Shown: positions 1,218 to 20,729 of the stretch, piece after piece
Numbering within the stretch: position 1 is the stretch's first letter
How the letters are laid out: every line of letters starts with the position of its first letter
DNA from: Prostheceraeus crozeri
Lineage: Eukaryota > Platyhelminthes > Polycladida > Euryleptidae
Assembly (NCBI GenBank): GCA_907163375.1
Contig: CAJQUW010006829.1
Coordinates: 37,501 to 101,500, forward strand
Direction of reading: 5' to 3'
DNA length: 64,000 nucleotides
The notes under the pieces: model-generated
Seen by the model: only the letters and a program-made list of their open reading frames with translations
Told to the model about the DNA's origin: nothing
Database searches by the model: none
Program-made: the position numbers and the translations under genes

Positions 1218-1905
1218 TTTGCGCTGAATGCATTTGCTAAAGTTGACAATTTTAGAATTCATGTGGAAGATATTGCACTTTACATTCGTCGAGTAGTACC
1301 GAATCCAAGTGTCATTAGAGGGCATGCTGAAGGCCTTAACCGCCAAATGCCATTTACCCATTCAGCATACAAAGCTTCTCACCTTTACAATTCCGAAAGA
1401 TCAAAAGAGTTTCATGAAAGATGGCCTCTTTCCATCGGAAGCACCGAAGCTCCTCATGGTGGCAATGGTTGAAAATGATGCATTTAATGGTAATATAAGA
1501 AGAATCCTTTCAATTTTAAACACAATCAGTTAAGTGAAATTGCTTTACGTGTAAATGGTGTGAGTCATCCTGGTCCACCCTACAAACCAGATTTTGCTTC
1601 GGATCAATTTATGCGCAGTTATGTTGATTTTATGGATGTTTTTGGCTTTTACAATACGGATGACACCAACGGACTGACTATGAAAGAGTTTTAAGAGTGG
1701 ATATACTATTTATGCATTTGATTTGACTGCTGACAGCGATATTAGTGCACCCTATCGTCAAGCGAACGTGCCTCATAATATTCGTTTGGATTTGACGTTC
1801 AAAAGAACACTACCTGAGACGATCAATGTATTAATTTATGCAGTCTTCGATTCAAATATTGAAATTACAAAGTATCGTGACGTGATTCTTCAGTATAATC
1901 GTTAA
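1218..1905 (+). pseudogene. capsid-like protein of Polinton-type element (F54H12.2-like), 3' half, broken
   Basis: Remnant of the C-terminal half of the large structural protein typical of invertebrate Polinton-type elements (the family annotated after C. elegans F54H12.2). The call is by family pattern recognition. Recognisable blocks in order are DIALYIRRVVPNPSVI (from 1263), LFPSEAPK and MVENDAFNG (about 1429-1485), FNFKHNQLSEIALRVNG (about 1510), GYTIYAFDLTAD (about 1699) and LPETINVLIYAVFDSNIEI (about 1810). The blocks lie in different frames, which implies frame breaks near 1328, 1500 and 1692. The 5' half is missing because the T-rich tract starts at the upstream border. The TAA stop at 1903-1905 overlaps the ATG of the protease frame (TAATG). 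The product would be a virion shell protein if intact; this copy cannot make it. Medium-high confidence on family, low on exact role. Confidence 0.7.
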
Positions 1906-2364
1906 TGAGTTGGTTGACTGCTGACGATATTAAGACTAAAGTGCAGCGTAATGCAGACGAAGCGACGTTGAAAGCTTTCGATAATGTCTATTCACTCGAT
2001 ACCTTACACCTGCAGTAAATCACTATCCATCTTTATTGTGCTAAACACTCATTCACAGAATTTAGGCGGTGAGCATTGGAAAGCGATCTTTATTGGAGAA
2101 GACCGACGTGGTGAACTATTTGACTCTCTTGCTCAACCTCCAAATATACCAACACAGCAGTGGTTGAGAAAACATACGCGTCAATATCAGCGAAATGAAC
2201 GCATACTACAACATCCACTTTCATCAACGTGTGGTGCTTTTGTACTGTACTTCATCTTAAAACGTTTACATGTATCTCGATTTGCATCTATTATTCAAAA
2301 CTTTTCATGTAATCCATCCTCTAATGAAAAAATGATTTGTAAGTTCTATCATGATTTGAAATAA
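1905..2364 (+). pseudogene. adenain/Ulp1-like cysteine protease, one frameshift
   Basis: A protease of the adenovirus maturation-protease type, which in Polinton-like elements processes capsid proteins. The N-terminal 37 codons read from ATG 1905 (MSWLTADDIKTK...). They end in a stop near 2016, and the main body continues in another frame, open from 1984 to 2364, so there is a single-base break near 2010. In the 126-residue body the expected catalytic residues are visible: His31 (GEHWKAIF), Asp47 (LFDSL), Gln76 (ILQHP) and Cys83 (STCGAFVLYF). Total length of about 145 residues is shorter than adenoviral adenain (about 200) but fits the family core. The start overlaps the stop of the upstream capsid-like gene. 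The TAA stop lies inside an AATAAA signal (2360-2365). Catalytic residues are intact, so the break is probably recent. Confidence 0.75.
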
Positions 2365-2396
2365 AAACATCATGTTGGAAAAAATTGTTTTTTATT
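2360..2396. terminator. paired poly(A) signals of two convergent genes
   Basis: AATAAA at 2360-2365 on the plus strand overlaps the protease stop codon (TAA 2362-2364). TTTATT at 2391-2396, which is AATAAA on the minus strand, overlaps the stop of the TBP-like gene (2392-2394). Only 27 bp separate the two stops. Such packing is seen in compact DNA viruses and is unlike the spacious host gene at the right of the window. Confidence 0.6.
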
Positions 2397-2937
2397 TTAC
2401 AATCCGCTGGGTACGTACATACTCAATGAGATAGTCTAGGATCATATTTGCTTGTTCATGAGATTTTAGTCCAGTAATGATCACTTTACTATTATGAAAG
2501 ATTGCCACATGCACAGGCAACCAACAACTAATGAGAGCTACAGGAAAAAGTTCGGGTTCATAACACAAACTGTAACTGCTGGTACGAATCTTCAAAAATG
2601 ATAGACTGTCACTCAATTGAGTAGAGATCACCATATTGTCCACAGTCAGATTCGACATCACACACCTCTCCCTCTTCCATATCCGACGTAGTAGTCTTTG
2701 TAGCTCTAAGCGCATTGACTGCGCCGATGAATGAGAAAGGGCGCCGAGAATCTGTACAGTCCCATTTGGGAAGAGTTGAAGATTCCGTGAATTGTTCATC
2801 TTCACCACTAACATTTGAGGACGGCCCGGGTAATACTTGCTGTTTGGAAGCTGTTGGCGTAATGTTGTGAGATCGATTTTGGTGTAGAGTCTGAAGCGAC
2901 GGAGAATGTTGACGATGGTGTAGCGATGGCGCTTCAT
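2392..2937 (-). CDS. TATA-box-binding-protein-like (TBP-like) protein
   Basis: A 181-residue protein, the size of the bare TBP core, starting at ATG 2937; the frame is open further upstream, but the core begins here. Two TBP-type repeats are visible. Repeat 1 is about residues 6-86 (IDLTTL at 21-26, YYPGRPQMLVVKM at 35-47, LFPNGTVQILGA at 55-66). Repeat 2 is about 95-178 (YEPELFP at 126-132, AIFHNSKVIITGLKS at 145-159). Family knowledge: TBP bends DNA with four intercalating Phe. Three correspond here (F56, F131, F147); the first position in repeat 1 is changed. The gene lies between the protease and the PC4-like genes of a Polinton-type element and has no introns, no host-type N-terminal extension and no frame break. 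It overlaps the upstream small ORF in another frame. A role as a promoter-selective initiation factor for the element is inferred. A captured and diverged host TBP/TRF is the likely origin. Confidence 0.72.
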   Translation of the reverse strand: MKRHRYTIVNILRRFRLYTKIDLTTLRQQLPNSKYYPGRPQMLVVKMNNSRNLQLFPNGTVQILGALSHSSAQSMRLELQRLLRRIWKRERCVMSNLTVDNMVISTQLSDSLSFLKIRTSSYSLCYEPELFPVALISCWLPVHVAIFHNSKVIITGLKSHEQANMILDYLIEYVRTQRIVK

Positions 2938-3259
2938 GATGAAAGAATGAGTAAATTGAGCGATGTACCTTCCTTTTATACTTTTCCCAACTACCTTGAT
3001 GAAATGTGAAGTTAGTATGAAGTTGGGAATGATAGAGTTGAATTCGCCGATTGTTGACGCGCAGCCAGATGCGATTTCCAATACGTGAATGTCTTTTCAT
3101 ATAGAAGTATTTCAAGTCCTTCATGATATGATGTAGAGATTGAAAATGACGATAAGATAAAGCAAACTCTCTTCTCACATTTCCAGTTGAATCTTTGAAA
3201 TAGACGTTTCGATCATGATCCGTTTCAATACGTTGTAGGGAATCTAATTTCCAACTCAT
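2609..3259 (-). CDS. small element protein with PC4-like N-terminus (copy b)
   Basis: 216-codon frame from ATG 3259. Residues 1-110 are clearly related to the next upstream gene (3282-3637): both share a LDSLQ-I opening, a D-x-NV-FK strand, an RR/RG-x-x-L-W/Y-F helix start, IMKDL/IMRDL, a W-E-KYRR/KYKRK segment and VHRSI/IHRSI. The order (strand with DxxGNVxFK, then basic turn, then xLxxxxFxxLxxIMxDL) resembles the ssDNA-binding fold of transcription coactivator PC4/p15; I regard this as a suggestive, not proven, match. The last ~105 residues (His/Ser/Pro-rich) overlap the TBP-like gene in a different frame and have no counterpart in copy a, so the real protein may end near residue 115. The stop of copy a is 22 bp before this start, which suggests co-transcription. 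Confidence 0.5.
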   Translation of the reverse strand: MSWKLDSLQRIETDHDRNVYFKDSTGNVRREFALSYRHFQSLHHIMKDLKYFYMKRHSRIGNRIWLRVNNRRIQLYHSQLHTNFTFHQGSWEKYKRKVHRSIYSFFHHEAPSLHHRQHSPSLQTLHQNRSHNITPTASKQQVLPGPSSNVSGEDEQFTESSTLPKWDCTDSRRPFSFIGAVNALRATKTTTSDMEEGEVCDVESDCGQYGDLYSIE

Positions 3260-3281: not shown

Positions 3282-3637
3282 TTAAGATTTGCATAGTAGG
3301 GCGATGAACTCACGACGAATAAATGTCATGATGGAGCGATGTATGTATCTTCTATACTTCTCCCAATTGTATTTGCGAAATGAGAAACAGTTTGCGGAAT
3401 GAGAATGGTAGATTTGAATTTCATTTCTGTAATGTTGAAGCCAAACTTGATCACCCAAGGAGATGAATCTTAATGTTTCAAAATATTCCAAATCCCTCAT
3501 GATATCATTGAGGTTGACAAATTGTCGCCATGTTAATGTAATTCCTCTTGATGTATGACCATGAGAATTTTGAAATGTACGTTTCCATCACGATCAACTC
3601 TGATATATTGTAGAGAGTCCAAAATCCAAGTCTTCAT
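3282..3637 (-). pseudogene. small element protein with PC4-like N-terminus (copy a), frameshifted
   Basis: Tandem paralogue of the gene at 2609-3259. It starts at ATG 3637 (MKTWILDSLQYIRVDRDGN). After codon 23 the frame breaks near 3565-3570 and the matching sequence continues in the frame that is open from 3500 to 3282 (MRDLEYFETLRF ... WEKYRRYIHRSIMTF). Full length would be about 118 residues. It confirms that the N-terminal ~110 residues of the neighbouring copy are the conserved unit. The start codon is 35 bp from the divergent start of the plus-strand structural gene. Confidence 0.5.
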
Positions 3638-3672
3638 GATGTTATGCAAAGTTGCAGATTAGCAATATAAAA
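3638..3672. promoter_or_regulatory. very short divergent promoter
   Basis: Only 35 bp separate the minus-strand ATG at 3637 from the plus-strand ATG at 3673. The gap contains ATATAAAA next to the plus start and TTATGCAAA (octamer-like) next to the minus start. Any transcript starting here would have almost no 5' leader, so the true promoters probably reach into the neighbouring coding sequences. Spacing is seen directly; function is inferred. Confidence 0.35.
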
Positions 3673-5070
3673 ATGTCGTTTTATCATATTTTGCTTAGCA
3701 ATGCGGCTACAAAGAGATTTACTAGTAATCGAGCCGCACTCTTTTCTACTCCCATTGATCATGCACAACAGCTAAATGGGAATTGGGAAGTGGTGTCACT
3801 CAACTTGTTTATAGCAACTGTGTCTATACTTTTGATCATGAGGTGATGACTATTAATATGAGGCGTACAGCTGCTTATCAATGTGAAAAGGGGGTGCCGA
3901 GTATACATTCCACAGTGGTCAAAGAAAGATCTCTTATCATGTAAAAAGTTTATATATGATTTCTTGAATAAAGCGTGTAAACATATTGTCCAATTTACTC
4001 CGCACAATGATGATTATAATTATGTACATCATGTAGTTGAGAAAGATTGGATTGTTGGTTTAAGTCCAAGTTTAAGAAATGATTTAGGCTACCTCGCTAG
4101 CGCCTTAACAAGCTATGATAATTTTAACGTTAATTACCACATAAGTGGTCATAAACAGTTAATATATCGAGAGGAAGCTTATTATGTAGATCTTATTCCA
4201 AGAAATGAGAAGACGTTGGTGAAGAAGATTGTGATTAAGCCAAGAAAGACAAACATGACTCCTGAAACATTATTGAAGAAATTTAATTATCTCCTTCGAG
4301 TTGATGGTAAACAAGTGGCAACATTGACTTATATCAAATCATCTAATCATATTGCAATAAGCAAATTAAATGATGATGATCTAGTATTAGTTTGTTCAAA
4401 AGATTTTCATCAGTTCTTACGACATCGTTCTGCAGCTGTTCATGGAAAATCTGATATGCAACATTTACCATGTGAAAGGCCAAATCAATTTGATACAGAA
4501 TGGGCCGTATCTTTATACAGAAAGTGTGTAGAGCCTTTTGGTGGTTTCTTACATGAAACAAGAGTGTTGATGCCTCGCATTATTACTTCGGTTAAATTGG
4601 TTGTAGATTATTTAAATGAAGTGATTAATGAGCAACATATTTCATTTTCTGAAAAAGAAGGTACTTTGTCTCTCACTATAAATGGAAAAGGTATTGAACT
4701 AATTATGGATAAAACTCTAATGGACATTTTGGGTTTTGATCAAAATATCTTTAAAAGTGGTACTGTAACCAAAGCTAGCGCAGACATGTCGCTATCGCGT
4801 CGTATTAACTATTTTCAGATATATTCCAATATTGGTGAAGATGTACGTGTGGGAGATGTTGAAGCTCCATTGCTAGCAATGATACCATACCAGCCAAAAA
4901 GCTGCAGTATTTTATCTGAGCATACTTTCAAGAAAGTGCATTATACAAAGCTGAAATCAAACTACATCCCACAAATTGATATTGCCATTTATGATGATGC
5001 TGGTGCGTTGATTCCTTTTCATAAAGATGCTGTGACAAGTATTACACTCCATTTCCGAATGAAGAGTTAA
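3673..5070 (+). pseudogene. Polinton-type structural-class protein a, two frameshifts
   Basis: Family found beside the F54H12.2-like gene in invertebrate Polinton-type elements; its hallmark is an N-terminal LPSNA-like segment followed by a GEWEV-like block (here LLSNAATKRF and LNGNWEV). It starts at ATG 3673. The frame shifts near 3808 and again near 3893 (AAAAGGGGG run), after which about 390 codons are open to TAA 5068-5070. The C-terminal part has IYSNIGEDVRVGDVEAPLL and IYDDAGALIPF, ending in a beta-rich SITLHFR tail. Intact length would be about 460 residues. It is clearly paralogous to the next gene, whose start is 9 bp (ATG 5080) or 39 bp (ATG 5110) downstream. A virion role (minor capsid or penton type) is inferred from neighbourhood only; the biochemical function is not known to me. 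Confidence 0.6.
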
Positions 5071-5109
5071 TGCAAAAGTATGCTAATATATTTTTCCAAT
5101 GTGAATAAT

Positions 5110-6629
5110 ATGGAAAGTGAAAATAAGGACTCGTTTCTAATCTACTTGCCCAGTAATGCTTCTATGAATAAATTTCCCAAAAATAAACCATCAGACTATC
5201 GAGTAGAATTAAATCGGCCACTGCATTTAGAAGGTGAATGGGAGGTTGGCGTTTCTAGTATTTGCTATGATAGCAATATTCAGAATGTGAATGATTTGGA
5301 AGAAATGATATTGACTCCTCGCACCCATGATGGAATAACGATGAATAATGCATTCCAGTTTCCATACAATTTAACATCAGATGGAAAATGGAACTATGAA
5401 TGGATTCAGATAAAATCAGATTCTTATGAGCCATTTGGGAATGAGAAAATTATTAAGGCATTCAACAGTGGTAATACTTCCATCATGAAGAATAAAAATC
5501 AGAAAGCTTATGAGTTTACTATCTATCATTGGAGTGGGAGACAGTTCCTCCGCTTTCATTCTTTTACTAAAGGTCTTACGCTGAGGTTGGATAGTGAATT
5601 CTATCCGCATCTTGGTTTTGGTCATGGACTACATCTAACGTCAATTGCTACTGCAAATGTTAGAAAAGTTTATTCAAATCGAATCAACAAATTTCATTAT
5701 AGATTTAAAATATTTGATGAAGATGTTGTAGAATGCGAAGAACGCATCATTTTGAAAAAGCGTGGTGTTCAACCTTTATCACTTATTGAGTTAGTAAAAC
5801 GATGGAATGAGACTGTGGGTAAGAAGTATGGAGAAAAAATTATGGCGGACAAAAATAAGTTGGTTATTCAGAAATATAATGACAAACTTACAGTTTATTT
5901 CTCTCCAACCTTGCGTCATTTTGTAAGACATTATACACCTATTATTGGAAGCGGTGTGGTGTATGCTTCTCATGAATATCACACTAAAGCTGATTCAGTT
6001 AATGATGAATGGTGGGTGGACATCTATGGCGATCGCATCAAGAAAATTTACCAGTCTTATGAAGAATCTAAAGTTGCTATCAATATAATGCCGCGTCTAT
6101 ATCATACAGTTGAAAGCTTCATTCATGTAGTAATCCTTATATACAACAGAAGTTGAAGCATGTGATGAAAAGTAAATATGATGTAAAGACACACCACATT
6201 TCGTTTTCAATTGAAAATCAACGCGTTGTTCTGAAACTGGGTGATGACATTCAATGTCAATTGAGTAAAAATTTGAAAAAACTCTTTGGTTTTTCAATGC
6301 TACAAACAGTGTTTGCTGCTGCGCATACGATTGGTATAGAAACACCAATGACACTTGATAAACATGAACAGCACCTTTACATTCAAAGTGATTTGATTCT
6401 ACCTATTTCTGTTGGTGAGAAAAAAGAATACATTTTACGTGATTTCATTCATGATAAAGACGCTTCATATGGAATAGTCGAGAAGATGTTTGAATCTATT
6501 TTCTATCATCCCGTCGTCAAACAAACTATACCCTCTATTGCTATCAAAATTACCAATGGTTTACAAGAGTGCATCCATGTGAAAGATACTAAATCCCTCA
6601 TAACGTTAGTGTTTCGGAAAACAAAGTGA
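5110..6629 (+). pseudogene. Polinton-type structural-class protein b, one frameshift
   Basis: Paralogue of the preceding gene with the clearest family N-terminus: FLIYLPSNASMNKFPKNK, then LEGEWEVGVSSICY. ATG 5110 gives the family-like start (MESENKDS); an in-frame ATG at 5080 is also possible. The frame is open for about 340 codons to 6156. The homologous sequence then continues one base out of phase to TGA 6627-6629 (ILPISVGEKKEY, SIAIKITNGLQ, ITLVFRKTK), which places a single-base break near 6133. Intact length would be about 505 residues. The shared mid-region (FVRH/FLRH, then EW-V--Y-, then MPRL/MPRI) aligns both copies, so this is an old tandem duplication. Role in the particle is inferred. 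Confidence 0.62.
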
Positions 6630-6934: not shown

Positions 6935-9900
6935 TTATGCTAAGACGTCTCCTGAATGTGGTAGTGTGAGTTTAATTCTTTTGGGTGGTGGTATGTTTGT
7001 GTCAGGATGTCCATGTGGAAGAGATATGTTGTGTTCTAACCAGCACCTCTTATCCTCCCATGCTGAAAGCGCCCGTTTCCTAAAAGTATGAGTTTTGATC
7101 TCATGCGACTTAGATTTTAAGATTGTCATATTGACAAACGTTATATTTTTATTTCTATAGGCTTTCCTGAAATTTTATGTTTCATATTTTGCACAATGGA
7201 TTTTGATATGCCTTTAGCGCGCTTAATGCTATCATCACTATCCTTTAATTTCATAGAATACATTTTTGGACGGAGGAGAATCATTTCATCTATTTCCTTC
7301 CCTGCTGTCTCATCCTTAAAGCAGCCAAGTTTTGCCTTATTTTTGATGGAGTAGAGTGGATGATCAGCAGGATAATTTGATGTATCAAAATATCTTTCCA
7401 AAGATTTTCCTACTTCATTGAAATTTAAATCTTTTTGAGTGGTAATACCTAAGAAGAAACTATCTGTATCACCACCCAACAAACGAACCTCTTTTACGAG
7501 AGGACATGGTTTTAGTATTTTATAAAAGAGTTGGTACATTTCAAGCTTAGAATAATCTAGTACAGCTTGACCAATATAGATGGGTTTGCACAACTCAACT
7601 TCAGATTTTATCATTTTAACACCTATAAGGTCCTCATCGATAATGTCTCTATCGATGAATAGAGGTGATGAGGTCAATTTGTGATACTTTTGATCATCAT
7701 TAACTAGTTTGTAGTTTACGCGCTTTCTAACATCCTCCATCGTCTTACCAAATAGACTGTTGTTCTTATATTTATAAAAATCTTTTTCAAAGTTATTTTG
7801 GGCTAGTGCACGTTTCTGGCTGTTGCTATCAATATATGGCTTGAGGAAGGCTTTCTGTCTAAATTTAATAATGCGGTGAACTCTTTTTAAAATCATACCC
7901 ATTTCTAAATAAAATTTTAAGATGCTAAAGTGGACTAGATAGTTTTCTTTATCATACTGGGTGAGTAAAAGTTTGCGACAAGGCTTATAGTCGGGTTGTC
8001 CACATGATTCTAAATCTTTATGAAATTGTTTCATAAAGTCGGAAAACATATCTTTACTCACTTCACCTGATTCGGGTGCGAGTGGAAAATCTACGGTTTT
8101 ATGTTTAATATTATTTGGATAGATTAGATCTATCTCAAAATAATATCCCCAATCACCTTCATCTGGAATTGCTAGTATGTTAGAAGGGTTGGAGAAATGT
8201 TGAATATCACTATCATCTAACCAGCTAAACTCAGAGTGAGGTAGCGGTTTGGATAATGAACTACCATACAAATTATTTTGGTCATAATACTTCAGATGAG
8301 TCTGGTCATTGCCTACTGTTTCAGATTTTAACCTATGTTTATTTACAAATGTGAGACCACCGCGAATTCCTCGCTCAAATAAATTATACATCTCTGGATC
8401 TTGTAAGAGATGAATGGTCTCACCAGTCATTTTAAAAGCAGACTTAAATGACATGGCTGGCAGACTGACAAAGTGGACGGGATCTAACTTATCTTCTTCT
8501 AATGCCACTCGTCGAAACTCCTGAAATACATCAGCCAGCAAAAATACATCTAACTTAAGGTAGGCAATCATATATTCGCCAAATGTATGGCAGTCAATTT
8601 TTATCCATGCATCTTGTGCATGATCATAATCTTCGGTCTTACATTCTGCGCCGGTCAAATCATTTTTAAATTTATCTATGGGCGGAAGAGAAGTCTCGCC
8701 GAGTTTACTAATCGCATCAAAATATGCATATGGAAAGACTCCTTTCCGTGTGATGACTTCATCGGTTAGATTTGGGTATTGTTTCTTAAGATTTTGTGTT
8801 AGTGGAAGAGACTTTAGATTTTGCACGAGAGAGGCCAGTGATGCAGTCATAAATTGGTAGGAATCTAAAAATTTTATATCAAAATAGACCGTCTTATTTT
8901 CTTTAGTTTTATCGACAGGCACTTTTGCTGTCATGGCCATAAACTTCTCTCTCGTTTGCGCTATTACATCAAGCTTCCACTCTTTCATTTGACCTAAACC
9001 TCCTTTTATTATCATATGGCTGTCGTAGCCCTTGAAATTATGGAAAATGACGGGTAATGTACGCCGTTTCATCCTAAGTGAAAAATTGCATTTTGAACAG
9101 AGTGCGTTTCTAAATTTAGCAGTGATGTGATCATGGTCGCGCACTTTCTTAATCTTATCATCGTCAAATGTTTTCCTACATTTGGGGCAAATGTTGCAAC
9201 TATCAAATTTTGCTTGATCATCTGCTGTCATATGCAATGATCTGCGATAGAGTTCACCATCATGTTTTTGTTGAAATTTTACAGCCTGTTCGAGGAATTG
9301 TAGGAATTGGTAAATACAATCCTCACCTTGCCAGACGCGCATTTTATTTTGCCTACTCCTAAAGTGATCATGCCATACTTCATAGCAGGAAATGGCTGCT
9401 GGTCGATGGATGTTATCATCGATATAACATTCGATGTCAGCATAGATGACACGAAGAGGACTTAATTCATCACCATTCTCTCTATATGAAAACTCCTTAT
9501 CTTTGGGCATGCGCTCCATTTGCAGTTTACCTCGCTTACACCATTCGTAATGAGTTTCAAATTTAGTTTTCCTCCTAAAGTGGCGAATACATCTGTCGCA
9601 GTAATATAACTCTCTACTAGAGTTTTCTAAGTGGTGGTATAAGCGAGAGATTTTTGGAATACCGCAGTAGTGCCATTCCTCACTATCATCCTGTTTTACT
9701 AATAACAGGTTTACTGTACGTTCATAACAACTCGAACGCGAGTTGTAGCGCACACCCTTCAATCCTTTTTCCCAAACATGGAGAACTATTTTGATGTTGT
9801 TCAATTTTTCAAATTTTTCTATATCTTTAATTTTCATATCGTCACTATTACAGTCATCGAAGTTTAATTCATTCTCCCACTGTTGATACTTACTCTTGCG

Positions 9901-10764
9901 GTATCGACTATTCTGCACATCATTATAGTGGAGAATGGAGAGGACGGCATACTTAAAACATTGCGATTCGCAATCTACAGAAATGACTGCTGCTTTATTT
10001 CTTAAATTTTTCGGAAGTTTAAAGGAGCCTCGACCACTATGATTTCCTAATAAACTGATTTTAATCATGGCGGTCTCAATACCATCAAAAACGAGTCCAC
10101 TATCACGCTCGTTAAATTTATCTATATTTAATTTTAACCCTTGGATATGAAAATTTATCCAAGACTCACAGTCTACAACTTCGGTTGCAGGAGAGGAGGG
10201 TATGTGAAACTCCAACCTCTCTATTATTTGTCCAGTATGGTGGTCGATTTTTACATATTTTATTTTAAGATAGATGAGCGCCTTCATCCTAAAATTGTCT
10301 AAATTGTTGAAGAGCGCTTCTATCAATGATGAATTTTGATGAAACCATTCCTCAAAGTTAGCAATGGTTTCTGAGGAGTCCATCTGGTAGTTCCTCACTA
10401 AATTATTTATGGACACTTCAGTGAGTCGGATAGAGGAGGTACCGTTGGTGTAGGTATCGTTCGCGTGTGTATGTTGAAGTCTGTGCGAAGATAGTTCAAA
10501 ACGTGTCTCGAAAGACTGAGCGCACAAGTCGCAAGAAAAGGAGACATCGTTAACAGAATCATCCCTACCTTCGGAGATTGATGCCGGCTTAGGTCGACAA
10601 ACACCTCGCTTGATGTGTCGGGTGAGATCACGCTTCCTCGTGAAGATGTGTCCACAGTCAGCACATTGCCGATCGTCGCATTCCCGCGACAATGTTGATA
10701 TGGACTCGCACGAGATGGAACTGGTATCACCTGAAAGAGAAATCATTCTTTCATCTCTGTTCAA
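6935..10764 (-). CDS. protein-primed family B DNA polymerase with N-terminal zinc fingers
   Basis: Replicative pPolB of a Polinton/adintovirus-type element; it starts DNA from a protein primer. The frame from ATG 10764 is open for 1207 codons to 7141. The C-terminus (SAWEDKRCW, then LPHGH, family hallmarks) lies one base out of phase in the frame 7129-6935, so a single break in an A run near 7140-7150 costs only about 70 residues. Domains: C2HC finger (C34, C37, H50, C56) and C2H2 finger (C78, C81, H94, H98); 3'-5' exonuclease motifs YADIEC (~441), NFKGYD (~574) and YLKLD (~734); an endonuclease-VII-like Zn segment CPKC...VRDHDHIT...CSKC (~523-558) inserted in the exonuclease region; polymerase A DQNNLYG (~828), B NNSLFGKT (~998), C GGDTDS (~1096) and KxY (PKMY, ~1166). 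All catalytic acidic residues are present. The tail carries an NLS-like PPPKRIKL. This is the least damaged gene of the element. Confidence 0.9.
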
Positions 10765-11194: not shown

Positions 11195-11533
11195 ATGACA
11201 AGCCCTCCGACAACATCAAACACAAAATTCTCTTCTCCATGCTCAACACCAAAGGCGCTCGTTACACCAAACGCTCCAAGAAAGGCGAAGGTGGAGAAGG
11301 TGTACCAACTGGACAATATCAGGAAGTTATCATTACCAGCGGATGAGGAAGAGGAGAGTGTATGTGAGAAGGAGTGTCCCGACTTAACAGGCGTGAGGTG
11401 GAAGTATCTCCAGTACGATACTGACGATGTGATGGAGATCACCAGCACGAAATTCCTCCACCAATTATGGGAGTGGTACACCCCTAACTCCCAGCACGAA
11501 CTATGGCAGAGTGGGAGTATATTGATAAAGTGA
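11195..11533 (+). CDS. small element protein, unknown
   Basis: 112-residue ORF from ATG 11195, downstream of TATATA. The N-terminal 35 residues are Ser/Thr/Pro/Lys-rich (TPKALVTPNAPRKAK), followed by an acidic patch (ADEEEES) and an aromatic C-terminal part (VRWKYLQYD, HQLWEWYTP). I do not recognise the family. A second small ORF overlaps its last 31 bases in another frame and carries on to a poly(A) signal, so the two may be one protein split by a frame break, as in the other element genes. Confidence 0.4.
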   Translation: MTSPPTTSNTKFSSPCSTPKALVTPNAPRKAKVEKVYQLDNIRKLSLPADEEEESVCEKECPDLTGVRWKYLQYDTDDVMEITSTKFLHQLWEWYTPNSQHELWQSGSILIK

Positions 11534-11643: not shown

Positions 11644-11700
11644 TAAATTTTTATTTCGTATTATCTTTGCTTTCATACTGACGTACTTGAATGGGGCTTC

Positions 11701-12309
11701 AGTGGATGATTTAACCATGTATACATTTTCATTTGGAAATAGTAGCACGCTTAGTCTAACTTGTAAATCTTAAAACATTTCATATGGACGATGATGATAG
11801 ATGAAATAGTGTCAAATAAAATTAAGATAGCTTACACTTCTGATACAGGGATAGCAATCGACTGCGATCCATGTGTAAAGAGCTTGTTAGACTACGGATG
11901 GGCTTAAGTGGATGATTTAACCATGTATACATTTTCATTTGGAAATAGTAGCACGCTTAGTCTAACTTGTAAATCTTAAAACATTTCATATGGACGATGA
12001 TGATAGATGAAATAGTGTCAAATAAAATTAAGATAGCTTACACTTCTGATACAGGGATAGCAATCGACTGCGATCATGTGTAAAGAGCTTGTTAGACTAC
12101 GGATGGGGTTAAGTGGATGATTTAACCATGTATACATTTTCATTTGGAAATAGTAGCACGCTTAGTCTAACTTGTAAATCTTAAAACATTTCATATGGAC
12201 GATGATGATAGATGAAATAGTATCAAATAAAATTAAGATAGCTTACACTTCTGATACAGGGATAGCAATCGACTGCGATCCATGTGTAAAGAGCTTGTTA
12301 GACTACGGA
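11701..12309. repeat. three tandem copies of a ~206-bp unit
   Basis: Copies at 11701-11907 (207 bp), 11908-12112 (205 bp, lacking CC in the CGATCC site) and 12113-12309 (197 bp before divergence) are almost identical. Each begins GTGGATGATTTAACC and contains the same short plus-strand frame beginning MMIDEIVSNKIK. Near identity means recent duplication, or an active array at the edge of the element. It lies just past the last plus-strand poly(A) signal. Confidence 0.9.
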
Positions 12310-13744: not shown

Positions 13745-14348
13745 GCAACCGTTTGGGTGTTAAGCTCTTGAATCCGTTACAGGCATTACTCAGAGGGGAT
13801 CTTATCCCAGCTCCAAGGCCTCGACCCACAAATCCAACCTCGATCGGACAGAGCGTGCGTCATATCACTGTGTTGGTATCCGGGCCCCAGTTTTGACATG
13901 AAAACCGGTGGAGTTATTTACAAGAGGAAACGACCCAAGTCACAGAGACTCATAAACGACTGCTTTTTATTCAAAAACTTTAATTATTATCATTAAATAT
14001 GAATTTAAATTTTTCAGTATTTTAGTACTACTCATAAAACGTTTATAAGTAGTCTGTCACCTTCAGCATAGCAAACGCTGTCGAATGTTTTTTGAATCAA
14101 GTCTAAAGGACTTGTAGAAGCAAAGTTATAGCCGTTTGAAGATTTCGGCCTACTATCATCAAATGGTCAGTCATGCTATACTGACTAACCTATAAGTCTG
14201 ACACCTTAGCTGATATCAGCAATGTAAAGTCAGAAGTCCGATATCGGACCTCAAGAGAAACGACTTACCTGTAGTCAGTTTCTCAACTTAGTGAAATTCC
14301 TCTCCCGATCCCGTTCTTATATACCCTGTGAATATGCAATCGATAAGA
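13745..14348. other. non-coding gap with short palindromes
   Basis: No gene recognised. It contains perfect short palindromes GCTGATATCAGC (14209-14220) and GTCCGATATCGGAC (14236-14249), plus an inverted GTCAG/CTGAC pair around 14167-14185. It may include the right border of the element; no terminal repeat could be matched to the truncated left side. Confidence 0.4.
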
Positions 14349-14957
14349 GGGGGGGGGACGTCAGTGAAATTTCAAAATTTGATGAAAAATGTTTTGGTGA
14401 CGGTCCCAGGTCGAAATTCCACACTTTGGAAAATTTTCAAATTTTTACCCATACAAAGCCACTCTGACACTTAGGATTTTTTCAGGTGAGCGAGCTCCGA
14501 CCTAAAATCTTGTAACCGCTCTAACTTTTGAACGAAGACAGATAGGAACAAGCCGATTGTTTCACTGAATTTGTCTCACTCTTAGCTTTCAAACGAGCTA
14601 TCGCACGACAAAATCCGTCCACTGGAAGCCAAAATCGAAGCAAGCTGTCCAGAGGGGGGGGGACGTCAGTGAAATTTCAAAATTTGATGAAAAATGTTTT
14701 GGTGACGGTCCCAGGTCGAAATTCCACACTTTGGAAAATTTTCAAATTTTTACCCATACAAAGCCACTCTGACACTTAGGATTTTTTCAGGTGAGCGAGC
14801 TCCGACCTAAAATCTTGTAACCGCTCTAACTTTTGAACGAAGACAGATAGGAACAAGCCGATTCTTTCACTGAATTTGTCTCACTCTTAGCTTTCAAACG
14901 AGCTATCGCACGACAAAATCCGTCCACTGGAAGCCAAAATCGAAGCAAGCTGTCCAG
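14349..14957. repeat. two ~305-bp tandem units with poly-G junctions
   Basis: Units 14349-14652 and 14653-14957 differ at only a few positions. Each starts with a G run and ACGTCAGTGAAATTTC and ends GAAGCAAGCTGTCCAGA followed by the next G run. Conserved minus-strand frames across the units are a by-product of identity and do not resemble a known protein. Confidence 0.85.
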
Positions 14958-15990
14958 AGGGGGGGGCGTCAGTGAAAATTTTTTCTCTCCGATTTCGCTG
15001 GAAACATCCTTCCTAACCCAAAATTTCACGTAGATTCCGAATCTGGCCTCCGTTTTCTCATCCGATGCTTCGTTTGGGCGCTACACACCAAAACGTCCCA
15101 AATTCTAACTCTGTCGTTTTTTCGAAAAATGTTGAAAATTTTTTCTCGCCGATTGCCTTGAAACTCACTATACAGATAAAGAATTTCACGCTGATTCCAA
15201 ATCTGAAATCCGTTTTCCAATCCGATGCTTCGTTTTGAAGCTAGAGCCCAAAACGTCCCAAATTCTAACTCTGTCGTTTTTCACCAATGTCCCAAAATCT
15301 TAAATGGCGTCTCACATCTAAACGAAGACAGATAGGAACAAGCCGATTCTTTCACTGAATTTGTCTCACTCTTAGCTTTCAAACGAGCTATCGCACGACA
15401 AAATCCGTCCACTGGAAGCCAAAATCGAAGCAAGCGGTCCAGAGGGGGGGGGGACGTCAGCCGAAAATTTTTTCTCTCCGATTTCGCTGGAAACATCCTT
15501 CCTAACCCAAAATTTCACGTAGATTCCGAATCTGGCCTCCGTTTTCTCATCCGATGCTTCGTTTGGGCGCTACACACCAAAACGTCCCAAATTCTAACTC
15601 TGTTAAAATTTTGAAGAAAAATTTTTTCTCGCCAATTGCCTTGAAACTCACCCTACCGATGCAGAATTTTACGCTGAATCCGAATCTGGCAGCCATTTCA
15701 CCATCCACGACAACATAGACGGTCGCCCACGTCAACCTAGACGGTCGCCCACGTCAACCTAGGCGGTCGGCCACGTCAACCTAGGCGGTCGGTCACGTCA
15801 ACCCATACGAGACCAACACATCCGAGTCTCACACTCTGTCGTTGCAGAGGGGGGGGAGTCAGCGAACATGTTGTGAACCAACCTGGCCGGCACACCACGA
15901 CAGACTCTGTCGTTCCAGAGGGGGGGCTCAGACCCGAAGCACCACGGCGGCCGACCACGACACTCTGCCGTTCCAGAGGGGGGGGGCGCC
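14957..15990. repeat. nested complex satellite with poly-G junctions
   Basis: Longer units (14957-15443 and 15444-about 15850) share the final ~140 bp or the opening block of the 305-bp units but contain two diverged internal sub-repeats starting GAAAATTTTTTCTC. Every junction carries (T/G)(C)CAGA followed by seven or more G (14651, 14955, 15440, 15846, 15916, 15976). The last units are truncated to 60-100 bp. The pattern suggests unequal exchange or template switching at the G runs. Confidence 0.8.
15717..15804. repeat. 22-bp minisatellite, four copies
   Basis: Units 15717-15738, 15739-15760, 15761-15782 and 15783-15804 follow AG(A/G)CGGTCG(C/G)(C/T)CACGTCAACC. GC-rich, embedded in the last long satellite unit. 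Confidence 0.85.
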
Positions 15991-16179
15991 GGTCGAGTGT
16001 TTGTCACTTGCTTACTACTATCCATCATCAATTAATGAAAAGTGCTTCCTAAAAGCACGCAAATAACTTTATCCCCGTGTGACCACCGTCCTTAAAAATG
16101 GATGGTGCTCAAAATAGTACTTAATATGCTCATGGATCTGTGATATTTGAACTATTAGATACCTAGCGACCTATGTCAC

Positions 16180-18201: not shown

Positions 18202-18888
18202 AGCCATTAAATGTTAGCTATAATAAAACAATATTATTATGCAAACTACTTAATAAAATTTTAGTAGCGAGATAGATACATCCTTTCATATTGCAGTCAC
18301 AAAAATGCGAGCAACTATCCTGGCGTCTCATATGAACGCCATCTTCATGAACGTGTTTTGAACAATGTTGCAGAAAATGACATGATTGCGCTCAAATAGC
18401 GCGCTAGCGTTGAGATTTCAGTGTTGCTGTTCCTCAAGCCTGATAGTATTTGTGTGGGTAAAAGAATGAGATATTCAACATGACAATCAGCTGAAATGAA
18501 GCATTTTCTGCGCTGAAAACCAGAAATAACACCTGCTCATATAATACGTGTAATTCACACATTCTGCCAAGGGATGCGAGCATTCATGGTTAAGATTGGG
18601 GTGTAATTGAATACTTAGGTGGAAGCTTTGTCATTTTTCGTCACACCTATCTCAGACTAATGATCAATTGTGGATTCACCTGGATACCTTAGCACCTGGA
18701 TGAGACGGTCAAAATCATTTTTGACATATGGTTGAACATGATCATCGGTAGGCCCATACGAAGAAGCATTTTTTTAAATAACAGCTTTGTGATGTGGTTA
18801 AGCCAGCTGAGTGATTGAATGCAGTTGACTGCCATCTTTCATACTAGGGTCTGAGTGATCTGTGATCGAAACAAACCACCTCCAAATT
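18202..18888. other. intergenic, nothing recognised
   Basis: No coding pattern, RNA gene or repeat structure was identified between the tRNA and the A-rich tract. Confidence 0.4.
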
Positions 18889-19274
18889 TAAAAAAAAATT
18901 AAAAAAACAATAATAAAAACAAAAAAAAACAAAAAAAAAAAAAGAAAAAAAAAACAAAAAAAAAAAAAAAAAATACAAAAAAAAAAAAATAAAAAAAAAC
19001 AAAAAAAAAAAAAAAAAAAAAAAAAAATTTAAAATATATAAAAAAAAAAAAAAAAAATAAAAAATAAAAACAAAAAAAAAAAAACAAAAACAAAAAAAAA
19101 AAAACAAAAAAAAAAAAAAAAACAACTAAAAAAAACAAAAAGAAAACATAAAAAAAAAATTAAAACAAAAAAAATTAAAAAGAAAAAAAAAAAAAAAAAA
19201 ACAAAAAAAAAAATAAAAAAAAAAAAAACAAAAAAAAAAAAAAAAAAAAACTTAAAAAAAAAAAAAAAAACAAA

Positions 19275-19305
<31 letters not shown>

Positions 19306-19331
19306 CAAAAACAAAAAAAAAAAAAAAAAAC
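18889..19331. repeat. A-rich low-complexity tract
   Basis: About 440 bp that is mostly A with isolated C or T, without a fixed period. The mirror composition of the 1-1215 tract (A instead of T on the plus strand) is notable. It has abrupt edges into normal sequence on both sides. Confidence 0.85.
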
Positions 19332-20729
19332 TAAACAACGCATTTGACAAGTCGTCAGCCTACATAATCCAGAAAAACAGTTGTCTCCCATCTACGCGGT
19401 AGGCCTACTTCTACTTCCAACAAGAATGTGTCTGTCATCCTATCCATACTCGGAAAGTCAGTCGCTGTGGTATTTCTGATTCTATTGTGTATTTCTTGTT
19501 ATTAGGCCTATCCCGTGGTTCATTCGATTATTAGAAAGTCACCATTTAGGTCGGTTTTCGCAAAAAGCAGAGGAAAATACCTCGTACACCCATTGACGAA
19601 TATTTCTGAGATGAAAAAGAACTTGCTTTGCTGTTCAACTTTGTTTTCTGATGACAAAATCTTGGTTTTAGCATAATACTTCAAAATAATATAAAATAAT
19701 TTAGTATTTACAAGAATAAAAAAACTTCCTTGTTAACAACAACAACAACGCTTCCTAAGTCGGAAAAGGAAGTTACTCGTCATCTTCTAAAGATCTTGAT
19801 TTTTCTATCTTGTATTCTACCTTTATGAAACACATCCGTGCGTGTATCATAACTTGACAGCCGTGAATTTGACAAGATGACATTTAGAATCCACAGCTGA
19901 TTCAATTAGAGCATTATCGATTGACGAACATACAATTATGCTATTTAAGAAAATGATTATTTCCATACGCTTCTGATGATAAAATTGCTGAAAAGATTGA
20001 TTTCCAGGTCAGTGAACATAGTAACCACAATAAAACTTTTGACTAGCATAATAAATGAAAATGATTCTACCAAAGCGAGTTGCGTTTGATTTACCCGTCA
20101 TATGACACTAAATACTAAGCAATAATACTTATTTCTATAAATTCATGAAAATTTATCGTTATCGAAACAAGCTCTCCTTGGTAAAAAAGGAACACTCAAA
20201 CTTCAGGAGCTGACTGATTTCCATAGGAGAATTTACCATCCATTATCAATAACAGAAGCATAGAGAGATAGCAGCAGTTTCTAGCATTTATAATTCTTAG
20301 AAATTGAAGAAAATTTTTGAATATGCTGACAGATGCTTGTGACATTTTCGCACTTATCTAAGCGAATTTTAGGCACACAAATTAGTGAAGCTTTGTTAAA
20401 GATCAGTTGGTTTCATCATTTTAATACAACAATTTCCAAGAGATTATTTTTTACTTTTGTGCGAGCTTAATTTTCTACTTTACAAAGCACAAAATTAATG
20501 CCCCTGACTAGGACTGACATGAGCAGAAGCGATATTAAAAGACGAATAACTTCCTGGTTCGACCGCTCAGCACTTCATGTTGGACGGGACAGCATTGCCT
20601 TGGCAATTAGATTGTCAATTCGATGATTCTATTGTCTGTCCCTTGCTTCTTTATCCCTGTTAGGATGTTGTCGTGGAATGTCCATACCGTTCATTTGAAG
20701 GAATGTTCGGACCATCGCAAAGTCTATGT
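19332..20729. other. 3' flank / probable 3' UTR of the integrin gene
   Basis: Between the A-rich tract and the integrin stop codon. No further exon recognised. ATTAAA-type signals occur on the minus strand around 20421, about 300 bp past the stop, and may end the transcript. The (AAC)n run at 19737-19749 is a short microsatellite. Confidence 0.35.

Follow-up and report, generated by a model that had tools for sequence, protein, structure and literature searches.

The 64,000-nucleotide stretch of Prostheceraeus crozeri DNA analyzed here (the window) contains a Polinton-type mobile element that encodes a diverged homolog of the TATA-binding protein (TBP). Judged from its sequence, this protein probably directs promoter use, sending host TFIIB and RNA polymerase II (Pol II) to the genes of the element. 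A sequence-only reading of the locus had given no strand and had noted neither the overlapping gene nor the TATA box (Table 1). The gene coordinates (2392-2937) and the protein length (181 residues) given there stand, and the strand is minus: the plus strand of this interval has many stops, whereas the minus strand holds the 181-residue frame.

Table 1. Features of the element in the window (positions of the whole stretch)
Feature	Position	Strand	Remarks
Hexon-like gene remnant	1218..1904	+	truncated on the left, frame broken; other copies have 425 codons
Adenovirus/Ulp1-type protease	1905..2364	+	frame broken; 153 codons in other copies
Element-encoded TBP	2392..2937	-	181 codons, frame intact
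Candidate dual-coded stretch, TBP first repeat and E tail	2609..2937	-	0/20000 TBP recodings keep E frame open
Protein E	2609..3259	-	216 codons; the final 109 share DNA with TBP, in another frame
TATAAAAGG box	2972..2980	-	43 nt upstream of TBP start codon, inside E
g14, paralog of E front	3282..3638	-	broken here (open 3282-3587); 118 codons open elsewhere
ATGCAAA box	3288..3294	-	upstream of E
ATGCAAA box	3644..3650	+	upstream of g15
g15, structural candidate	3673..5070	+	frame broken; 465 codons in other copies
ATGCAAA box	5070-5076	+	one of three window sites
g16, related to g15 start	5080..6629	+	frame broken; 516 codons in other copies
PolB-like gene, zinc fingers and endonuclease VII-like part	7141..10764	-	3' end shorter than in other copies
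gX ORF	11195..11533	+	112 codons; other copies have a longer ORF
Right terminal inverted repeat	14806..16021	.	matched by inverted left ends of L010 and L011

The TBP gene and its family

The Pfam search that had been proposed as a check of the translated frame gave a significant match to PF00352 (E=1.6e-20; 73.1 bits against a curated cut-off of 22.9), in two stretches that agree with the two TBP repeats read earlier from the letters. The other features noted in that reading were also found: the YEPELFP signature is present in the 181-residue protein, the TAA stop codon lies inside AATAAA, and the gene is located between the protease fragment and other element genes. Alignments with 4wzs and with the family confirm that three of the four positions known from yeast and human TBP to kink DNA are phenylalanines (residues 56, 131, and 147); residue 40 is proline.

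A single-sequence search yielded 17 homologs (35-81% identity), and a profile search yielded 175 at E<=0.001, the best 120 of which all carry PF00352. Among 121 family sequences (gaps excluded), the first kinking position is occupied by proline in 98/99, and the other three by phenylalanine in 106/106, 120/121, and 121/121. The two acids of YEPELFP, whose counterparts in cellular TBP contact TFIIB, are glutamate in 120/121 and 121/121. Thus, the element TBP has three of the four DNA-kinking phenylalanines; since the PF00352 profile and the fold define the TBP family, it is still counted as a TBP homolog, and the missing first phenylalanine separates the element-TBP subfamily from other TBPs.

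The 2.05-Gb genome of the same species was searched with the P0001 query, and the best 150 of 11865 candidates were scored, best first, so that broken copies would be missed; all 150 span residues 1-181 at 99-100% identity and have no stops. Chance origin of the frame is excluded, because it has 17 homologs, 175 by profile, and full-length copies without stops in 150 of the 150 scored cases.

Structure prediction, the second check proposed earlier, gave a TBP saddle fold built from two repeats that matches solved TBPs at about 18-25% identity; the model is weakest at residues 111-140 (pLDDT 52-67), a region that includes the C-terminal stirrup. By sequence and predicted fold, the window gene is a TBP homolog. 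A PF00352 search of the same genome, in which the best 150 of 10982 candidates were scored, identified the TBP genes of the host itself: a canonical TBP (contig C9306) with two exons ~15 kb apart and phenylalanine at the first position (NPKRFAAV), and a gene with a YEPELHSG motif (contig C3829), which we take to be TLF-like. In an unrooted tree of 25 element-type and 4 cellular TBPs, where the P-numbered rows are known as proteins without genomic context, all element-type sequences fall on one side of a branch with 100/100 support, a topology compatible with one origin.

Gene content and class of the element

The window copy has lost its left part: similarity to other copies starts at position 1218, after an A/T-rich stretch. 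The genes lost from it were read from three other copies, as left and right pieces. The integrase, gone from the left-truncated window copy, has 404 codons in L009 and matches rve (PF00665, 1.2e-10) and, at residues 360-398, Chromo (6.5e-7), both above cut-off. The terminal repeat was recognized by pairing two different copies, the left end of one with the right end in the window: L010 1-1104, inverted, is 97.2% identical to window 15906-14806 over 1107 columns, and L011 20-1203, inverted, is 93.1% identical to window 16021-14806. Because of the rve integrase and the inverted terminal repeats, the element is of the Polinton type, and the earlier placement of the TBP gene inside such an element holds. 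Its full length, estimated from pieces, is ~22 kb. Of the adintovirus traits given in a passage of PMC11071296, an integrase with a C-terminal chromodomain is found in L009; the definition also names a PolB with an N-terminal OTU-like domain and a hexon recognizable by BLASTp to adintovirus hexons.

TBP and E have open frames in the window copy. The hexon-like, protease, g14, g15, and g16 genes do not, and the PolB-like frame is shorter there; other copies provide open versions of these genes. The protease part in the window matches PF02902 (7.1e-4) and PF00770 (0.026), both below the curated cut-off, and the L009 protease matches C48 (0.0012; 19.2 bits, cut-off 20.7) and C5 (0.042). A 205-codon ATPase candidate in L010 has matches to Pox_A32 (0.026), AAA_14 (0.017), and a PHROG ATPase (0.005), below cut-offs where these are given. 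The 425-codon hexon-like protein, the candidate double jelly-roll major capsid protein, has no Pfam or PDB sequence match, and g15 has no meaningful Pfam match; both g15 and g16 match one and the same stretch of L018 and L019. The PolB-like protein contains an endonuclease VII domain (PF02945, 2.8e-5) and zinc fingers according to Pfam; neither Pfam nor PDB gives a polymerase match (the PDB matches are zinc fingers only, at E>=0.056), and Pfam gives no OTU match. Putative exonuclease and polymerase motifs were read in it by eye. No RNA polymerase subunit was recognized among the element genes.

Several side observations concern the same region. A 118-codon ORF in L009 (3844-4200) weakly resembles the mu core protein of adenoviruses (PF05829, 0.0024, below cut-off). 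Tandem units of ~206 bp occupy window positions 11664-12309, beside the right part of the element, and are present in other copies too. The right inverted repeat region (14346-15970) consists of direct repeats that contain G runs. Positions 1-1190 and 18884-19338 are very A/T-rich with opposite strand bias, the former replacing the left part of the element copy.

Copies and sister lineages

Copy L002 is 99.2-99.9% identical to six of the other seven first loci over ~3.5 kb, and 99.5% identical to the window copy over 3.2 kb; such near-identical copies point to a recent burst. In a side comparison, L012 (contig C1862) and L013 are near-identical to about base 4500 and then 70-96% identical through the PolB-like gene, where 303 synonymous-only and 237 replacement codons were counted among 1265; this pattern suggests that modules have been exchanged among lineages of the element.

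The gene is also conserved in sister elements, a condition on which the sequence-only reading had let its interpretation depend. In lineage 2, from the same genome, the order of the hexon-like, protease, TBP, and g15 genes is that of the window element; L018, L019, and L021 match the window element at 44-60% in the hexon-like protein (in pieces), 39-43% in the protease, 41-42% in TBP, and 46% in g15. Hexon-like, protease, and TBP matches were also found in L024. Lineage 3 (L031 and L037) has TBP (43%) and E (27-34%) adjoining a PolB-like gene; L031 has a g3 match further out, and the adjoining piece L046 has g1-g3 matches. The 12 kb examined for this lineage (L031, L045, and L046; contig C11285) gave neither a hexon-like nor a protease match. 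The TBP/E pair is thus preserved in two different gene orders. Scans of IMG/VR confirmed no sister element.

A probable second coding frame inside TBP

The front of the TBP gene overlaps the tail of protein E. A protein search with the first 160 residues of E gave four matches: P0122 (216 aa), P0123, and P0124 (222 aa each) keep the tail, whereas P0125 (147 aa, from a 635-base contig) is without it. Among 28 loci, 17 have a placed TBP start, 10 have none, and 1 has no TBP match. In 15 of the 17 placed copies, which represent three lineages and not 17 independent cases, the E frame is open 101-113 codons into TBP; it is open for 47 codons in L021 and for 18 in L041, where the TBP start is probably misplaced.

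That the open E frame is an accident of composition, with the 216-codon ORF untranslated past its front part, is very unlikely. The opening measures 109, 102, and 113 codons in the window lineage, lineage 2, and lineage 3, whereas among 20000 random synonymous TBP recodings, with codon usage pooled from TBP second halves, the frame stays open in 0, 3, and 0 cases, respectively (in at most 1 in 1000 with element-wide codon usage); the third frame is open for 0-15 codons in all 17 placed copies. The tail is conserved like the front in relatives, with 85/109 against 82/107 identical residues in P0123 and 70/109 against 74/107 in P0124. The E tails of lineages 2 and 3 share 36/102 residues (recodings reach at most 31, and 0/2000 are as high), and those of the window lineage and lineage 3 share 27/105 (4 and 8 of 2000 recodings are as high). 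The accident would fit the comparison of the window lineage with lineage 2, where the tails share 18/102 residues, not above recoding (as high in 319 and 258 of 2000), as well as the protein itself, in which no domain was matched and whose structural model is poor (pLDDT 43.2). Two motifs recur in the tails of all three lineages: FSF, in register, and SIE, close to the end. The sister tails P0123 and P0124 fit the window TBP at 102/109 and 95/109 positions, where shuffled tails reach 36 at most; no pair of sister E tail and sister TBP fits fully in this double-encoding comparison. From these comparisons, we consider 2609-2937 to be dual-coding with moderate to high confidence.

Among the best 120 TBP homologs, 15 have 88-90 residues and span 48-49% of TBP, and the six examined match its second half; they are probably gene-caller products of the TBP/E overlap. 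Better conservation of TBP inside the overlap was considered and rejected: it was seen with P0002 and P0003, but an aberrant C-terminal end of P0002 lowers the outside figure, and the cross-lineage comparisons (inside against outside, 44/102 vs 29/71, 50/105 vs 27/72, and 54/102 vs 42/71) show little difference or the opposite. Near-identical copies differ at too few sites for selection to be judged from them. E and g14 are paralogous in their front parts (44% identity), the TBP-overlapping tail being found only in E. A PC4/SUB1 label for E, considered for a resemblance, was discarded: Pfam gave no PC4 match, and hhalign against a human PC4 segment gave a probability of 1.0%.

Candidate promoters

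The TATAAAAGG box is found, exactly conserved, upstream of the TBP start in 13 of the 17 placed copies, covering all three lineages, about 43-46 nt from the start where this is well placed. L018, L030, and L032 carry variants of it, and L044 has none within 60 nt upstream of TBP. Because the box also encodes conserved residues of E, its conservation may be partly protein-driven. The TATA box as a general element promoter was rejected: TATAWA precedes 2/18 starts against a shuffled mean of 2.4 and is not enriched.

A second motif, ATGCAAA, has 9 sites on both strands of L010 and L013, of which 6 precede a same-strand start by at most 60 nt. In the window lineage it thus precedes 6/18 starts (0.29 sites expected in the 60-nt interval, which was picked after a first look at 150 nt), at distances of 10-46 nt. 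In a best-of-all-7-mers control, 6 shared starts were reached in 2/5000 Markov shuffles and 5/5000 random-window draws. The six genes, mostly of packaging and structural units, are g5 (mu-like), g6 (the ATPase candidate), g9 (the head of a tight group with the hexon-like and protease genes), E, g15, and g16; the box is absent before the integrase, PolB-like, and TBP genes. The E and g15 sites are kept in six further window-lineage copies (L025, L026, L027, L029, L033, and L042). A role of ATGCAAA across all lineages with TBP was not supported: no site lies upstream of g15 in L018, L019, and L021 of lineage 2, and the box appears lineage-specific at best. On this evidence, ATGCAAA is a candidate late promoter of the element.

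Possible role of the element TBP

Since TBP has been kept through deep divergence of the elements, its conservation indicates that it does something these elements need. The sequence-only reading had suggested element-encoded promoter recognition, which we also infer. In the reading that we favor, TBP would be transcribed, probably early, from the canonical TATAAAAGG box readable by host TBP. The protein would bind DNA with an altered preference, proline replacing the first kinking phenylalanine, and the retained YEPELFP stirrup, with its phenylalanine and acids, would still recruit host TFIIB and Pol II. This would direct host transcription to genes of the element itself, probably late genes, from promoters of another kind than TATA, and protein E would be made alongside TBP, perhaps as a partner. 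Points in favor of this role are the separation of the element TBP from host TBP and from the TLF-like gene, and its retention with E and the box in three lineages. Quite tentatively, the element might even possess its own core-promoter selectivity factor: an early-made TBP, expressed from a host-type TATA box, would re-aim Pol II to TATA-less promoters (in the window lineage, those with ATGCAAA before packaging and structural groups), together with a dual-coded protein from the partner frame.

An interfering TBP, which would not start element transcription but damp or redirect that of the host through competition for host TFIIB, other factors, or promoters, seems unlikely. Such a protein could bind factors without normal promoter bending, and the element TBP does keep the stirrup thought to contact TFIIB and has lost one kinking phenylalanine; however, it retains three phenylalanines and most of the fold on the DNA side, which is more than a decoy requires. 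We give still less credence to a DNA bender acting in replication, packaging, or genome compaction and not in transcription. The TBP fold bends DNA, and linear element DNA would be replicated with a PolB-like protein, but the conserved YEPELFP stirrup, the factor-binding surface of cellular TBP, would be superfluous for bending alone. Polintons pick up genes, but a captured host TBP pseudogene can be dismissed almost outright, as the gene is intact in every scored copy, has no introns, is far from host TBP in sequence and in the tree, and is conserved in at least three element lineages.

Relation to known systems and implications

The element TBP shares with archaeal and eukaryotic cellular TBP (PF00352) the two-repeat saddle fold, the YEPELFP stirrup, and three of the four kinking phenylalanines; unlike cellular TBP, it has proline at the first of these, lacks introns, is encoded by a mobile element, and overlaps another gene in its N-terminal half. 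It resembles TLF/TBPL1 as a diverged TBP that coexists with TBP; however, the host owns a TLF-like gene, from which the element TBPs are separated in the tree.

Virus-encoded TBPs are likewise present in giant viruses, mirusviruses, and nimaviruses (wsv303), and 33 BFVD entries match at E<=0.001, some of them named TBP, with 6-20% identity among the matches listed. Passages of the respective sources report TBP in 59% of mirusvirus genomes (PMC10132985), name a Megavirus TBP (PMC11464507), and mention TBPs of nimaviruses (PMC10871703). The TBP-bearing large DNA viruses are many times larger than a Polinton-type element, and the giant viruses and mirusviruses among them have genes for RNA polymerase subunits (PMC10132985 and PMC11464507). 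Mobile elements that sporadically carry TBP genes are mentioned for an alga in a passage of PMC10675990 and put down there to mirusvirus relatives.

Polintons/Mavericks and adintoviruses share with the element the rve integrase with a chromodomain and inverted terminal repeats, and the element has candidates for their protease, PolB, and capsid genes; they differ in that TBP is unreported for them in the literature examined, whereas the element carries it. The words 'TATA' and 'TBP' are absent from the main texts of PMC11071296, PMC11071308, PMC10120064, PMC8097293, and PMC4028283, and 'TATA' from those of PMC10675110 and PMC8363768. No report of TBP in a Polinton, Maverick, or adintovirus was found in open-access main texts; since the literature search was limited to these, we claim no priority.

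TBPs have so far been known from cells and large DNA viruses. If the proposed role is true, a TBP in Polinton-sized, Pol II-dependent elements would represent a minimal takeover of promoter choice by a small virus, and it makes the timing of element genes directly testable. The family-wide change from phenylalanine to proline is a natural experiment on DNA bending by TBP, and an overlap this deep and long between two coding frames is already unusual on its own.
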